Shown here one piece after another: positions 367 through 64,000 of a stretch of DNA of 64,000 bases. The stretch spans positions 154,382-218,381 of the IMG/VR virus record IMGVR_UViG_3300031344_000002; one strand, given 5' to 3'. Under the pieces are notes generated by a model. That model was not told where the DNA came from, made no database searches, and was given only the letters and a program-made list of their open reading frames with translations. Position numbers and translations under genes: made by a program. Position 1 is the first letter of the stretch, and the number at the start of each line of letters is the position of its first letter. This stretch comes from a virus.

Positions 367-780
367 ATGGAAAATAAAGAAATAAAGATTAACGTACCTG
401 ATGGGTTTGAAATTGATAAAGATAATTCTACTTTTGAATTAATTAAATTCAAACCTGTTGTAAATAAAGAAGATAATAAATCCAAAGAAATGTCGGATTT
501 ATTATTCTCAATGTTTAATAACACTGTGTGCAAAATTACTGGTGAAAAAGAAATAACTTATTATAAATTAAATGGATATAATCCAAATTCTGATGATAAT
601 GAGTGGTTATTTCAACAGGATTGGAAAAACGGTAGATTATGGGTAAAATATTCACTTATTTGGAAGGTTTTTGAAGAAAGATTTGGTCTTAACTACGACC
701 AAATCAGAGATTTCATTCAAGATTGGGTGGAAACCAACCTAAATTGGAAGGGTTTAACACCAATTCAAGGCGGATATTGA
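367..780 (+). CDS. Small phage protein whose 3' end is a CRISPR repeat
   Basis: This 137-residue protein begins MENKEIKINVPDGFEIDKDNSTFE, a start I recognise from small hypothetical proteins of Bacteroidetes phages and prophages; its function is unknown. The last part of the frame (DWVETNLNWKGLTP) is the translation of the first CRISPR repeat (726-761), and the stop TGA lies inside spacer 1. The natural C-terminus was therefore probably replaced when the array arose here. A 57-base relic of the same gene start (MENETKTNIPDGFEF) precedes the decayed array at 52.8 kb, so gene start and repeat moved or were copied together. Seen: the frame and the overlap. Inferred: that the upstream gene serves as leader. 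Confidence 0.75.
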   Translation: MENKEIKINVPDGFEIDKDNSTFELIKFKPVVNKEDNKSKEMSDLLFSMFNNTVCKITGEKEITYYKLNGYNPNSDDNEWLFQQDWKNGRLWVKYSLIWKVFEERFGLNYDQIRDFIQDWVETNLNWKGLTPIQGGY

Positions 781-959
781 CGACAGCAAAAGGTGGAAAC
801 CAACCTAAATTGGAAGGGTTTAACACCGTTGCCAGTAATGCCCTTGCGGAACTATATGGTGGAAACCAACCTAAATTGGAAGGGTTTAACACCAGAAAAG
901 GATAACTGGTTTTCCTATTGTTTGGTGGAAACCAACCTAAATTGGAAGGGTTTAACACC
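726..959 (+). CRISPR. CRISPR mini-array: 4 repeats of 36, 3 spacers of 30
   Basis: Four identical 36-base repeats (GGTGGAAACC...GGGTTTAACACC) occupy 726-761, 792-827, 858-893 and 924-959. The spacers at 762-791, 828-857 and 894-923 are all different and each exactly 30 bases. The repeat ends GGTG/CACC are complementary. The 36/30 geometry and the core TTGGAAGGG resemble type VI-B (Cas13b) direct repeats, which typically begin GTTG, end ACAAC and have a TTTTGGAGGG-like core; this is from memory, not a search. No cas gene lies in the window, so the array would need a host or distant effector. Spacers 1 and 2 are clearly GC-richer than the surroundings, as expected for foreign DNA. The array lies just after and partly inside the gene at 367-780. 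Confidence 0.93.
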
Positions 960-8980: not shown

Positions 8981-9169
8981 ATGAAAACAATAACTATTTC
9001 ATTTGATATTAGTGTCCGCATTAAATGGAAATGTCCTCATTGTGGCGCAGAACAAGAAACATTATTTAGTGCTTCACCATATAGAAGTATTGCTGAAGAC
9101 CCGCCTGATGAAATGTGTAAAAAGTGTGAGGAATTTGTAACACTTAATTTTTATAAAAACGAAGAATAA
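8981..9169 (+). CDS. Small zinc-ribbon protein, 62 aa
   Basis: CPHC (near residue 18) and CKKC (near residue 46) form a four-Cys zinc ribbon. The segment between them is short and acidic. Three bases separate it from the preceding membrane peptide gene. Confidence 0.75.
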   Translation: MKTITISFDISVRIKWKCPHCGAEQETLFSASPYRSIAEDPPDEMCKKCEEFVTLNFYKNEE

Positions 9170-9187
9170 ATTTTAAAAATTAAATAT

Positions 9188-9316
9188 ATGTTCGAACTAT
9201 TATTGGGTCATCTTTGTGGTGATTTTCTTTTTCAGACGGAAAATATGGCTTTAAACAAAAGTAAAAATACTTTTAAGGGTTGGTATTATGCCATAATTCA
9301 TTGCCTAACTTATTAG
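9188..9316 (+). pseudogene. DUF3307 membrane-protein gene, truncated
   Basis: The 42 residues MFELLLGHLCGDFLFQTENMALNKSKN...AIIHCLTY match the start of DUF3307 membrane proteins (pattern L-L-x-H-x-x-G-D-F-x-x-Q-x-x-x-M). The family normally continues with several more membrane helices. Here the frame stops at 9316, inside the relic end of a TnpB-type element that begins at about 9303, and no DUF3307 remainder is seen downstream. Confidence 0.65.
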
Positions 9317-10749: not shown

Positions 10750-11499
10750 ATGTATAAAGGTGTTATTTATTGTGCAATCTCTCCATCAAATAAAAAATAT
10801 TATGGACTTACTTTAAATTTTTCAAGAAGAAAAAATGGTCATAAAAGATGTGCTGAATTTAAAAAATGTCGTTTTTATATTGCAATTAAAAAATATGGTT
10901 TTGATAATTTTATTTGGAATATAATAGAAACACATGAAAATGAAAGTAAAGGGAATCTTCAAAATATTTTAAATGAAAGAGAAAAATATTGGATTGAAAA
11001 AGATAAAACATATTATTCTGAATTTGGATATAATATGACTCGTGGAGGTAATGGTGGTGATGCATTTACAAACAAATCTAATGAAGACAAGGAAAGAATA
11101 CTTTTATGTAAAAGTAATAGATTTAGTGGTAAGAATAATCCAATGTATGGAAAAAAGGTTTATGATATTTGGTTAGAAAAATATGGAAAAGAAATTGCTG
11201 ATGAAAAATTAATGGAAAGAAAAAAAAGAACAAGTAATTCGCTTAAAGGAAAAAGTCATCCTTGTTCAAATGAAACAAAAGAAAAAATAAGAAAAAAACT
11301 TTTAGGACATAAAATTTCGGAAATTTGTAGACAAAAACGTTTAGGCAAAAAAAATGCTGCTGGAAAAAGAAATGATGAATTTAAATTAAAAATGAGTATA
11401 TCTCATAAGGGATTACCATCACCAAGAAAGGGATGCCATCTTACAATTGAAACAAAAAGAAAAATTAGTGAATCAAAATTAAATAAAAAGATTAATTAG
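10750..11499 (+). CDS. GIY-YIG homing endonuclease with NUMOD3 repeats
   Basis: A 249-residue free-standing homing endonuclease. The N-terminal catalytic domain has the GIY-YIG pair as VIYCAI...KKYYGLT, with the family Arg in FSRRKNGH and the Glu in LNEREKYWI. A GYNMTRGGNGG hinge follows. The C-terminal half carries NUMOD3-type DNA-binding repeats: SGKNNPMYGKK, then LKGKSHPCSNETKEKIRK and HKGLPSPRKGCH. Such enzymes cut a target and spread their own gene; this one sits between two small genes and not inside a visible intron. The sequence AGTATTTATAT occurs at both flanks (10724 and 11501) and may mark the insertion edges. Confidence 0.88.
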   Translation: MYKGVIYCAISPSNKKYYGLTLNFSRRKNGHKRCAEFKKCRFYIAIKKYGFDNFIWNIIETHENESKGNLQNILNEREKYWIEKDKTYYSEFGYNMTRGGNGGDAFTNKSNEDKERILLCKSNRFSGKNNPMYGKKVYDIWLEKYGKEIADEKLMERKKRTSNSLKGKSHPCSNETKEKIRKKLLGHKISEICRQKRLGKKNAAGKRNDEFKLKMSISHKGLPSPRKGCHLTIETKRKISESKLNKKIN

Positions 11500-52817: not shown

Positions 52818-52874
52818 ATGGAAAATGAAACAAAAACTAACATACCTGATGGGTTTGAATTTGTTAACCCATGA
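52818..52874 (+). pseudogene. Relic of the CRISPR-leader gene (MEN...PDGFEF)
   Basis: MENETKTNIPDGFEFVNP-stop repeats the first 15 residues of the gene at 367-780 (MENKEIKINVPDGFEI) and, at DNA level, keeps ATGGAAAATGAAACAAA... and CATACCTGATGGGTTTGAA. The rest of that gene is gone, and the stop is followed after three bases by a decayed CRISPR repeat. Confidence 0.7.
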
Positions 52875-52877
52875 CCC

Positions 52878-52957
52878 TGTGGAAACTAATCTAAATTTGA
52901 AGTGTTTAATACCACAAATTTGTTCGGTTATACTTCCTAAATCCGTGGAACTAAAAT
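52878..52957 (+). CRISPR. Decayed CRISPR array: one full degenerate and one truncated repeat
   Basis: 52878-52913 matches the 36-base repeat of the array at 726-959 at 30 of 36 positions (TGTGGAAACT...AGTGTTTAATACC). The next repeat would begin after a 30-base spacer at 52944, and CGTGGAACTAAAAT is found exactly there, a repeat start with an internal deletion. The 36/30 periodicity is therefore kept. Probably no longer active; it shows that the array and leader were duplicated or acquired twice. Confidence 0.7.
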
Positions 52958-52976
52958 AATTAAAAATAAATTATAT

Positions 52977-53264
52977 ATGGAAAAAGAAGATTTAATACTA
53001 TGTGAATGTGGTTCTCCTGAACATCAAATTATTATTCAAAAGGACGAAGAATTTAAAGACAGAATGATTTATTTGCAAATTCATTTAAGAACTTACAACA
53101 ATTTCTTTAAAAGAATTTGGATTGCAACTAAATACATCTTTGGTTATAAGTGTAGATATGGAAATTGGGATGAATTTATTCTCACAACAAATAATTATCA
53201 ACCAATGAAAAATGCTATTGAATTTTTAGAAAACGATATAAACAAAAATGAAAACGATATTTAA
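52977..53264 (+). CDS. Conserved Bacteroidetes-phage protein, 95 aa
   Basis: MEKEDLILCECGSPEHQIIIQKDEEFKDRMIYLQIHLRTYNNFFKRIWIATKYIFGYKCRYGNWDEFILTTNN. The blocks C-x-C-x-S-x-E-H-Q, Y-L-Q-I-H-L and K-Y-I-F-G-Y-K-C-R-Y-G-x-x-D-E are a family I know from many Bacteroidetes phages; function unknown. Confidence 0.87.
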   Translation: MEKEDLILCECGSPEHQIIIQKDEEFKDRMIYLQIHLRTYNNFFKRIWIATKYIFGYKCRYGNWDEFILTTNNYQPMKNAIEFLENDINKNENDI

Positions 53265-57640: not shown

Positions 57641-58327
57641 TTATTGTTTAATTGTTAAAACCGCAGGATTTACTACTCCATCACCTTCATGTCCATATTC
57701 CTTATTGTGCCATTTCCGGAGTTCTTCACCATGTTTCCAGCATTGAGAAAGAAGATTAACAGCACAACCGTACATAAATCCAGTTATACCCATAAATCCA
57801 AGTTCATGCGAAGTTTTTTCGGCAATATCAACAAGTTTATTTCCTTTAGCTATTTCAACTTGCATAAGTTTTGCCCATCCTTCTGCATAATCCAAAGCAG
57901 CTTTTCCGTATGGGTCTGTATTTGCTTCACGGCTTTTATTCCATCCCTCGGTGTCTTTTAGTTCTAATTCAATACCATTAATTTTAGTATCAAATACGGC
58001 TTTTTCAGCAGCTTCTTTTTTACGGTATTCTTCAGCTTCATAAGCTGCTTTTTCTTCTTTAATTTTTGTAAGCCGTTTAAACTCTGCCTGTGTTTCTTTA
58101 TCGTATTTAGCAACGCAATTAGTACCAACAGTTTTCCATCCCATTGTCCACGAATTTGAGTAATCACGGTATAAATATTTTAATTTGGTATTTTTATCAA
58201 CCAAACATTTTACACCATTGAAATCAAATTCAACCACTATGTTTTTTTCTGTGGCTATTTCTTTAGCTTTTAATGCTACATTGTCAAATGTATTTCCGCA
58301 ACTTGCTTCTAATTTATAAGTTTTCAT
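57641..58327 (-). CDS. Hypothetical protein with helical hairpin, 228 aa
   Basis: MKTYKLEASCGNTFDNVALKAKEIATEKNIVVEFDFNGVKCLVDKNTKLKYLYRDYSNS, then a coiled coil (EFKRLTKIKEEK AAYEAEEYRKKEAA), then LDYAEGWAKLMQVEIAKG and FMGITGFMYGCAVNLLSQCWKHGEELRKWHN. Well composed and less AT-rich than the neighbours; the end recurs in several Bacteroidetes phages. Function unknown. Confidence 0.83.
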   Translation of the reverse strand: MKTYKLEASCGNTFDNVALKAKEIATEKNIVVEFDFNGVKCLVDKNTKLKYLYRDYSNSWTMGWKTVGTNCVAKYDKETQAEFKRLTKIKEEKAAYEAEEYRKKEAAEKAVFDTKINGIELELKDTEGWNKSREANTDPYGKAALDYAEGWAKLMQVEIAKGNKLVDIAEKTSHELGFMGITGFMYGCAVNLLSQCWKHGEELRKWHNKEYGHEGDGVVNPAVLTIKQ

Positions 58328-60563: not shown

Positions 60564-61802
60564 ATGATTAAAGCATATAAATATCGAATCATGCCAACTA
60601 AGGCACAACAAACACTAATCAATAAACATATTGGTAGTTGTCGATTTGTATATAATCTTGCTTTAGAAACCAAACAAATTGCTTATGCGGGTAATAAAAT
60701 TAATTTATCTTGTTTTGACCTAATTAAACAACTTCCTGCTTTAAAAAAAGAATGTGAATGGTTAAAAGAAATTAATGCACAATCATTGCAACAATCAATA
60801 ACACATTTAGATAATGCTTTTACTCGATTCTTCAAAGGACAATCAGATTTTCCTAATTTTAAAAAGAAATGTGCTAAACAATCATTTAATATACCACAAA
60901 GTGTAATTCTTGATTTTGATAATAATAAACTTATCATACCCAAATTTAGAAAAGGAATTAAAATAATTTTACATAGAACTTTTAAAGGTACTATCAGACA
61001 AGCAACTATAAGCAAAACTCCAACAGGTAAATATTTTGTAAGTATATTAGTTGAAAATAATGTTGTGATACCAAATAAAGTAAATATTGAAAGTAATAAT
61101 AGTATTGGTATTGATTTAGGTCTTAAATCATTCTTAATAACTTCTGAAGGTGAGACATTTAATAATCCCAAATATTTAAGAAAATCACAATCTAAATTAA
61201 AATATATACAAAGTAAATATTCAAAATATAAAGGCAAAAAAACAAAACATAAATTAGCTCTTTTGCATGAAAGTGTTGCTAATCAAAGAAAAGATTTTTT
61301 AAATAAAATATCAATTAAACTTATTAGTGAGAACCAAACAATATGTTTAGAAGACTTGAATATTAAAGGTATGTCAGCAAGATGTAAACCAAAACAAGAC
61401 GAAAATGGTAGATATTTACCTAACAGTCAAAGTGCAAAATCAGGACTTAATAAGTCTATAACTGATGCTGGTTGGGGTATGTTTGTTGATATGCTTAAAT
61501 ATAAAGCAGAATGGCAAGGTAAAAACATATTACAAATTGGTAGATTTGAACCATCAAGTAAAACTTGTAATGTTTGTGGCAATATTAATAAAGAGTTAAC
61601 TCTTGATAATAGAGTTTGGACTTGTAGTAATTGTAATACTGTTCTTGATAGAGATGTTAATGCAGCAATTAATATTAAAAATTTTGCTTTAAGAAATTAC
61701 ATTAAATTGTGTAAGGAACTTACACTTGAAAATCATAGCGAACTGCCTACATTAGTGGGAGTGATGACCTATGAAGCCAACAAGTCTTTAGCTTGTAGGT
61801 AG
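60564..61802 (+). CDS. tnpB: TnpB RNA-guided nuclease (IS200/IS605-type)
   Basis: A complete 412-residue TnpB. The start MIKAYKYRIMPTKAQ and the HTH-like lead are standard. The RuvC residues are visible: Asp184 in IGIDLGLKSF, Glu263 in CLEDLNIKGM and Asp364 in LDRDVNAAIN. The zinc ribbon is CNVCG near 335 and CSNC near 354. TnpB is guided by an omega RNA made from the element's right end, overlapping the 3' end of this gene; the conserved end AGTGATGAC...GAAGC, a hairpin and GTAGTTCACTT lie at 61760-61810. No TnpA transposase is nearby, so it is an IS1341-like solo element or a domesticated gene. AGTATTTATAT precedes the start. Confidence 0.93.
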   Translation: MIKAYKYRIMPTKAQQTLINKHIGSCRFVYNLALETKQIAYAGNKINLSCFDLIKQLPALKKECEWLKEINAQSLQQSITHLDNAFTRFFKGQSDFPNFKKKCAKQSFNIPQSVILDFDNNKLIIPKFRKGIKIILHRTFKGTIRQATISKTPTGKYFVSILVENNVVIPNKVNIESNNSIGIDLGLKSFLITSEGETFNNPKYLRKSQSKLKYIQSKYSKYKGKKTKHKLALLHESVANQRKDFLNKISIKLISENQTICLEDLNIKGMSARCKPKQDENGRYLPNSQSAKSGLNKSITDAGWGMFVDMLKYKAEWQGKNILQIGRFEPSSKTCNVCGNINKELTLDNRVWTCSNCNTVLDRDVNAAINIKNFALRNYIKLCKELTLENHSELPTLVGVMTYEANKSLACR

Positions 61803-62703: not shown

Positions 62704-64000
62704 TTAATTTCTACTATTCCAAAAATAATCCAATTCTTTTGGTATTTCATTTGGTCTATGATATTTAGCTGCTTCTATACAATCATTAAAACTACTGTCA
62801 GTTGGTATTAAATAATTTTGTCCAGTTGAAGGACATGTCATCTTTAACCAAGCTAATGCTGCAGGACTATTACCATTTAAATCCTCTTCTTCATTAAATA
62901 CTTCTTTAGTCTTATATAATATAAATTCTTCATCACCATGTGCATGTTTAATAGTTTTCCTATCTACTTCAACAGCATCAAGAAATTTCATCATTTCTCC
63001 CTCACCTTTGCTTTCAATTATTTCATAAATACCACCCCTAACGTCTTCATTGGTTTCATTTATAAAATCTGTTTTAATTAATGAATTGTTATTTGCTTTT
63101 TCAAATATCAATTTCGGCATTTGTCTTCCATGAATATAATAACAATCAAACTTTGTTTCTTCAATTGTACATCCCCATTCAACAGCTAAACCATTTGTAT
63201 TATGTAAATTATTGTTATTATCTCTATATATTTTCTTTGGATATTTTGAAACAACACATAATAATTCAGAAAAAATTGCTGAATACACACCAGAATCTAA
63301 ATATAAATCATTCCAAGAATTTAATGTAATTCCAATTTCTCCACAATCAATTTTAAATTCATCTTTAATAAATTTCCACCAAGCCAATGAAACATTAGAA
63401 TAAACATTTGCAGTAAATAAATATGAATTATTATAATTCTTTAGTGTATTGTTTAGTGTATTCTTTAGTGTATTGCGTAGTGTATTGCCTAGTGTATTGC
63501 CTAGTGTATTGCTTAGTGTATTGCGTAGTGTATTGTGTAGTGTATTGTCTAGTGTATTGTCTAGTGTATTGTCTAGTGTATTGCGTAGTGTATTGTATAG
63601 TGTATTGCGTAGTGTATTGAGTAGTGTATTGTATAGTGTATTGAGTAGTGTATTGTATAGTGTATTGCCTAGTGTATTGCCTAGTGTATTGTCTAGTGTA
63701 TTGAGTAGTGTATTGTCTAGTGTATTGCCTAGTGTATTGCCTAGTGTATTGTCTAGTGTATTGTGTAGTGTATTGTCTAGTGTATTGTCTAGTGTATTGA
63801 GTAGTGTATTGTATAGTGTATTGTCTAGTGTATTGAGTAGTGTATTGCGTAGTGTATTGTATAGTGTATTGTCTAGTGTATTGAGTAGTGTATTGTATAG
63901 TGTATTGAGTAGTGTATTGTATAGTGTATTGCCTAGTGTATTGCCTAGTGTATTGTCTAGTGTATTGAGTAGTGTATTGTCTAGTGTATTGCCTAGTGTA
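62704..64000 (-). CDS. Large protein with NTLx repeats and a DUF6745-like domain, partial
   Basis: The frame is open on the minus strand from the window edge (64000) to the stop at 62704, so at least 432 residues are visible and the start lies outside. Upstream of about 63440 it is a tandem tetrapeptide repeat N-T-L-x (x = G, D, R, Y, L, H, S, N or K), about 46 copies. Then comes NYNNSYLFTANVYSNVSLAWWKFIKDEF and a globular part: LHNTNGLAVEWGCTIEETKFDCYYIHG, VRGGIYEIIE, FLDAVEVDRKTIKHAHGDEEFILYK, WLKMTCPSTGQNYLIPTDSSFNDCIEAAKYHRPNEIP. This order is that of DUF6745-like domains, which often follow such short repeats. Function unknown. Confidence 0.85.
   Translation of the reverse strand, partial: TLGNTLDNTLLNTLDNTLGNTLGNTLYNTLLNTLYNTLLNTLDNTLYNTLRNTLLNTLDNTLYNTLLNTLDNTLDNTLHNTLDNTLGNTLGNTLDNTLLNTLDNTLGNTLGNTLYNTLLNTLYNTLLNTLRNTLYNTLRNTLDNTLDNTLDNTLHNTLRNTLSNTLGNTLGNTLRNTLKNTLNNTLKNYNNSYLFTANVYSNVSLAWWKFIKDEFKIDCGEIGITLNSWNDLYLDSGVYSAIFSELLCVVSKYPKKIYRDNNNNLHNTNGLAVEWGCTIEETKFDCYYIHGRQMPKLIFEKANNNSLIKTDFINETNEDVRGGIYEIIESKGEGEMMKFLDAVEVDRKTIKHAHGDEEFILYKTKEVFNEEEDLNGNSPAALAWLKMTCPSTGQNYLIPTDSSFNDCIEAAKYHRPNEIPKELDYFWNSRN
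63443..64000. repeat. 12-base tandem repeat, about 46 copies, open to the window edge
   Basis: The unit TAGTGTATTGnn repeats without a gap; only the last two bases (plus rarely the base before) vary. On the minus strand each unit codes for Asn-Thr-Leu and one variable residue. All variants seen keep the frame open and none makes a stop. Confidence 0.95.

Follow-up and report, generated by a model that had tools for sequence, protein, structure and literature searches.

A CRISPR-type mini-array that begins within the 3′-terminal part of a multi-copy phage gene and probably serves as a guide-RNA cassette

The window, which is the whole stretch of 64,000 nucleotides analysed here, corresponds to C1:154382-218381 and so forms the right-hand end of a virus record (C1) of 218,381 bp. 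It carries, at 726-959, four identical copies of a 36-nt repeat, GGTGGAAACCAACCTAAATTGGAAGGGTTTAACACC (726-761, 792-827, 858-893 and 924-959). Three unrelated 30-nt spacers lie between them, which gives a period of 66. When up to 3 mismatches were allowed, the repeat was found four times in the window, with none expected from 100 shuffles. A preliminary description of this DNA reported four 36-base repeats and three 30-base spacers, and these figures are exact. It missed that the array is fused to a gene and is part of a multi-copy module. Here, repeat 1 is the in-frame 3′ end of the ORF at 367-780, the last codons of which (VETNLNWKGLTP) are repeat 1 itself, and the stop codon lies within spacer 1. 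The features of the module and of its copies in C1 are as follows:

367-780, plus strand: module gene C, 137 aa; its paralogues precede arrays A and B, and homologues precede arrays in other phages
682-725, plus strand: stretch FGLNY...QDW in the 3′ part of the gene, leader-like and with atypical codons for the phage
726-761, plus strand: repeat 1, CRISPR-type and coding
762-791, plus strand: spacer 1, 30 nt, without a target among phages or plasmids
792-827, plus strand: repeat 2
828-857, plus strand: spacer 2, 30 nt
858-893, plus strand: repeat 3
894-923, plus strand: spacer 3, 30 nt
924-959, plus strand: repeat 4, the last, at the trailer end and intact
52818-52979, plus strand: decayed fourth module, in which a gene start (MENETKTNIPDGFEFVNP*) runs into the remains of a repeat at 52878-52913
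C1:2902-3269, minus strand: array A, 6 repeats, 5 of them with the CTAATC variant
C1:153690-154055, plus strand: array B, 6 repeats, the last with a decayed 3′ end; 327 bp to the left of the window

In total, C1 contains three arrays that share one repeat, plus the decayed fourth, in which the relic repeat (52878-52913) has 6 mismatches and is probably followed by a degraded second repeat from 52944, as read by eye. Each of the three arrays begins inside the 3′ end of its own paralogous gene of ~135 aa, with repeat 1 specifying the last residues of the protein. The paralogues of arrays A and B are ~86% identical and the junction is the same in both. Among the spacers of arrays A, B and C, no two are alike. 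An ordinary tandem repeat or an assembly artefact might be considered here, as repeats cause assembly breaks and one contig (L036) does end inside the gene. Such an origin can be given almost no weight: array A is identical in L001, an independent record that is a second assembly from the same population (100% over 7.6 kb), and other phages carry the module too, with repeats and spacers of their own. Elsewhere in the window, ~46 copies of a 12-nt tandem repeat (TAGTGTATTGTC) occupy 63442-64000 at the contig end, which is perhaps an assembly end or a repeat-rich terminus.

Relatives of the module were retrieved in two ways. The protein motif FGLNY..I, and not the repeat, led to one distant relative, the 69.8-kb contig L069 (g69), where the module gene likewise runs into an array. 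Its repeat is different and the register is the same. Three modules follow one another on this contig, and a fourth is on the opposite strand; one of the contig's module genes forms the C-terminal extension of a protein that is otherwise conserved in jumbo phages and whose tblastn matches in named phages stop near residue 310. Tail sheath, DNA polymerase and other proteins of the L069 phage have distant counterparts in the window phage. The second route, a DNA pattern shaped like an array, retrieved L083, which has one module and whose array is also present in L085 and L100. It also retrieved the 122.6-kb contig G1053, where seven modules lie; some of these are fused to other genes, one of them to a 562-aa ORF. 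Two further hits to this pattern, L092 and L090, were chance matches. The junction between gene tail and repeat is at the same place in 14 of the 14 modules compared. The independent repeat lineages number two (the window phage, and L069/G1053/L083), and the contigs are incomplete.

The arrays have the character of CRISPR arrays. Their direct repeats are near-identical and 36 nt long, the spacers are uniform in length (28-32 nt) and all different, and several of the last repeats are degenerate at their 3′ ends. In addition, module e of G1053 and module 1 of L069 have a trailer-end spacer in common (29/30), and module e has two extra spacers on the gene side. This could reflect gain in G1053 or loss in the relative by recombination. 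In this one informative pair of phages, change is located at the leader end, with the old spacers and the decayed repeat at the far end. As spacers differ between modules and related phages gain or lose them on the gene side, the array is not an ordinary tandem repeat; the preliminary description had named a tandem repeat that matches no CRISPR family, with identical spacers in relatives, as the outcome that would overturn it, and that outcome is contradicted.

Further support for a CRISPR nature came from spacer composition and from the repeat itself. The GC content of the spacers is 0.355 against 0.263 for the genome of the window phage (6 of 20,000 random draws were as high), and 0.456 against 0.296 in G1053, which suggests that the spacers are of foreign origin. 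The window repeat folds into a stem with internal loops, and the terminal stem co-varies between GGTG/CACC, GCTG/CAGC and GTTG/CAAC. Here, the pair 2/35 is U-A, C-G or G-C, and the paired changes exceed those of all 500 shuffles. The targets of the spacers did not emerge: none of the 63 spacers (13 from the window phage and 50 from the other arrays) has a convincing protospacer in public phages, the 13 window-phage spacers have no target among plasmids, and the best match in the phage's own genome and the other phages fetched, the arrays themselves excepted, has 8/30 mismatches.

The dual role of repeat 1 raises the alternative that the device works at the level of the protein, in which case the repeat would be a C-terminal motif of the coding sequence, and the array would be a side effect of duplication that diversifies the protein tail. 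The tail encoded by repeat 1 is conserved in all modules, with E..K.LT kept; some ORFs continue through the spacers; and the predicted last helix of the product extends into the repeat-coded residues, in structure predictions of low confidence (pLDDT 56 and 62). The two changes between repeat variants are both synonymous, which fits a coding function, but they also preserve G-U pairs in the predicted fold. Most of the ORFs, however, end in spacer 1, and spacers of 31 and 32 nt break the frame; the co-variation of the repeat ends as a stem also speaks for a nucleic acid. Codon use points the same way. From FGLNY onward the codons are atypical, with only 0.4-0.7% of windows as unusual in the window phage and 0.15% in the L069 phage; the leader and repeat use rare codons in both phages, and the upstream rest of the gene has normal codon use. 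This is expected if the stretch is kept as nucleic acid or is foreign in origin. A purely protein-level role is consequently regarded as distinctly improbable.

The product of the module gene matched no family in family searches and no fold in predicted-structure comparison. An approximate peptide query for homologues gave no match in viral contigs and, in enterobacterial phages, only weak ones (E of ~1 or above). The N-terminal motif, KI.VP.GYEIDK..STFE.I.FK, is also carried by unrelated proteins from Bacteroidota and from phages that infect them, for example at L021 2501-2598 (crAss-like phage cr116_1) and in L067, and behaves as a swappable N-terminal tag. From the relatives of this motif, we infer that the host may be a member of the Bacteroidota.

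The preliminary description also held that this is a phage-borne CRISPR mini-array lacking cas genes, and the searches agree. A Cas13b profile gave no match in C1 and did ring in a control genome, a home-made Cas13b HMM was negative, and Cas13b is absent from C1 and 21 related virus records (22 searched). No effector, cas1 or cas2 was found at the locus, and no recognisable cas operon. In a PADLOC scan of 141 proteins, the only Cas-like match was a TnpB at 60564-61802 (plus strand), ~59 kb from the array in the window. This protein has IS605-type Pfam domains (HTH_OrfB_IS605, OrfB_IS605 and TNB), and its three acidic RuvC-like motifs look intact when read by eye. PADLOC labels it Cas12u4/Cas12f and even Csx1. 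Since all of these calls fall on the same ORF, the corresponding models evidently ring on TnpB, and the Csx1 match was rejected. Other genes of mobile or anti-defence type are also present in the phage: a GIY-YIG/NUMOD3 homing-type endonuclease ORF (10750-11499, plus strand), several further HNH and homing endonucleases in the genome, and an anti-defence gene (57641-58327, minus strand) that matches Tad4, an inhibitor of type I Thoeris (Pfam PF25186, E 4e-36).

Phage CRISPR of all six types was reportedly found in a 2022 survey. Mini-arrays are known from viruses, namely archaeal portogloboviruses and huge phages; these are likewise short and without cas genes, and presumably act on rival viruses through the Cas proteins of the host (PMC11656645, PMC7162821). 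The arrays of huge phages have a median of six repeats (PMC7162821). In known mini-arrays, the repeats are identical to those of the host and the spacers have targets in related viruses, whereas neither was found for the window phage. The window phage differs also in that a multi-copy gene of its own contains the leader and the first repeat. Phage arrays without cas genes are already known, and an array with its leader and first repeat as the 3′ end of a multi-copy phage gene was not found described.

Which effector would use such guides was approached by typing the repeat. One candidate is type VI-B acting in trans, in which crRNAs from the array would load a host Cas13b and the transcripts of rival phages would be cut. 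The shared features with type VI-B of Bacteroidota are a 36-nt repeat, a ~30-nt spacer, G-TG...ACA-C ends, a GAAGG-like core and the leader-to-array orientation; the geometry fits all fetched VI-B loci except one. A profile was built from 13 reference VI-B repeats, which were taken from Cas13b loci and from pattern matches in genomes. The window repeat scores 9.7 against it, a value matched by 1 of 100,000 mononucleotide shuffles and 71 of 50,000 dinucleotide shuffles, and the repeats of L069 modules 1 and 2 and of L083 score 20.4-25.3, within the range of genuine VI-B repeats left out in turn (19.4-42.2). The window repeat is nevertheless an outlier, as it falls below every VI-B repeat tested. 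The repeat had been called VI-B-like in the preliminary description, and this stands insofar as the resemblance beats shuffles; as an assignment to VI-B it is supported in part at most, because the score is below those of all 13 real VI-B repeats and the same class of repeat is also found beside Cas12f/TnpB-like genes. GCTG...CAGC ends are seen next to a Cas13b gene in L055 (G408; 9092-9260), an exception to the usual VI-B GTTG...CAAC.

Genome searches did not supply a host. When 84,980 genomes were screened with a pattern common to the window repeat and the Bergeyella VI-B repeat, four clear loci with VI-B-type repeats came up, among them those of Bergeyella and of an Aquimarina with Cas13b next to the array. 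The window repeat itself, which this pattern includes, was in none of the 84,980 genomes, and it was also absent, at up to 3 mismatches, from 396 Bacteroidota genomes. The cas13b host with the same repeat that the preliminary description proposed to look for was therefore not found. In favour of VI-B, spacer capture in trans by the Cas1-Cas2 of another system is established for VI-B in Flavobacterium, and VI-B loci are transcribed from the leader (PMC8092290). In published surveys, few or no type VI components are found in mobile elements (PMC10651486, PMC11656645, PMC12607003): plasmids are without type VI (PMC11656645), and a recent landfill survey left it out as uncommon in viruses (PMC12607003). 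The lack of Cas13b in the 22 virus records counts against VI-B, and a host Cas13b is a possible, tentatively held effector.

The second candidate is type V-F/V-U acting in trans, in which the effector would be a compact Cas12f/TnpB-like protein encoded by phage or host and could be the TnpB of the window. The same repeat class and geometry occur in other large virus contigs (up to 365 kb), where arrays of five types (L086/L097/L094, L081/L101/L102, L082, L095 and L098) adjoin Cas12f/Cas12u/TnpB-like ORFs, so that the repeat does not single out Cas13b. The array of L098, which has a TnpB/Cas12f-like ORF beside it, was left out of the VI-B count. The contigs of the other four types, of 64-365 kb, have 36-nt GTTG...ACAAC arrays, and their repeats are up to 31/36 identical to VI-B repeats. 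Typing by repeat may for this reason assign arrays of either class wrongly. The module repeats resemble those of the phage type V arrays (means of 20-23.5 of 36, with 28 as the best) a little more than they do VI-B repeats (means of 17-21, with 25 as the best), a comparison biased by the fact that the type V set was fetched with a pattern from the module repeats. V-U/V-F effectors accompanied by arrays are known from huge phages (PMC7162821), and the apparently intact RuvC-like motifs of the window TnpB fit this candidate. In contrast to phage V-F/V-U loci, the modules have no adjacent effector, the TnpB is distant and IS605-like, and no Cas12-like ORF was found in the module-carrying fragments L069 and G1053 (70 and 123 kb). 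No tracrRNA anti-repeat above chance was found, by a test that likewise detected none at loci with an array-adjacent Cas12f. A compact type V effector is thus again no more than a tentative choice, and the two classes carry about equal weight. They differ in how the guide is built: a crRNA made by Cas13b has its repeat at the 3′ end, and one made by a Cas12 enzyme has it at the 5′ end.

The repeats might instead act as an RNA anti-CRISPR, that is, as decoys that titrate or mis-assemble a host effector, with the spacers mattering little. Such Racrs, or solitary repeat units, are also phage-encoded CRISPR repeat mimics without cas genes, and a survey established them for every type but type VI, for which none was reported (PMC10651486). 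Many of the arrays have just 2-4 repeats, and several copies per genome would boost dosage. Racrs, however, are solitary repeats, whereas the modules have multiple repeats with regular, unique spacers of 28-32 nt. A decoy would also have no need for spacers higher in GC than the phage, or for gene-side differences between relatives. For these reasons, a decoy function is considered unlikely.

The feature is probably a phage-borne guide-RNA cassette, that is, a CRISPR mini-array whose leader and first repeat form part of the 3′ end of a small phage gene, and it is most likely used in trans. This explanation draws on the fixed register in 14 modules, the duplication, the distinct spacers, the co-varying repeat ends and the gene-side spacer difference, all of which are read from the sequences themselves. 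The array would be transcribed together with its gene and the RNA would be cut at the repeats, giving crRNAs of a 36-nt repeat plus a ~30-nt spacer. The effector would be encoded away from the array and could be a Cas13b or Cas12f-like nuclease of the host, or the phage's own distant TnpB/Cas12f-like protein. By analogy with archaeal virus mini-arrays and some huge-phage arrays, the effector and its crRNA may be turned on competing phages or plasmids. New spacers would presumably be inserted at the gene-repeat junction by host Cas1-Cas2. Because repeat 1 is copied on such insertion, the coding sequence of the gene would survive, a few tail residues aside, and this is how an array could live inside the end of a gene. 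The arrays, of 2-6 repeats, could also be decaying.

The gene-plus-array unit is duplicated in the genome and appears, from sequence comparison, to be an old association in related large myovirus-type phages. A more far-reaching idea, which is speculative though worth naming, is that of a phage element specialised for this role and able to multiply: a gene family with a 3′ end that codes for protein and at the same time forms a CRISPR leader plus first repeat. Such an element would hitch onto other phage genes and capture spacers via host Cas1-Cas2, and its protein may aid guide handling or the choice of effector.

Phage mini-arrays have usually been viewed as stray copies of host arrays. The array described here belongs to a family of phage genes that reaches seven copies on one contig and whose repeats serve both as coding sequence and as guide, so phages may maintain arrays as standing equipment. 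The gene domain provides a search handle for arrays that repeat-based tools have overlooked. The guide-RNA cassette also makes it testable whether a phage can renew its guides through adaptation machinery that it borrows, and whether the effectors exploited target RNA or are compact DNA-targeting enzymes. Since no fewer than two further phage lineages have the gene-plus-array unit, it seems that phages keep guide-RNA cassettes in stock for a CRISPR enzyme whose gene does not lie next to them.
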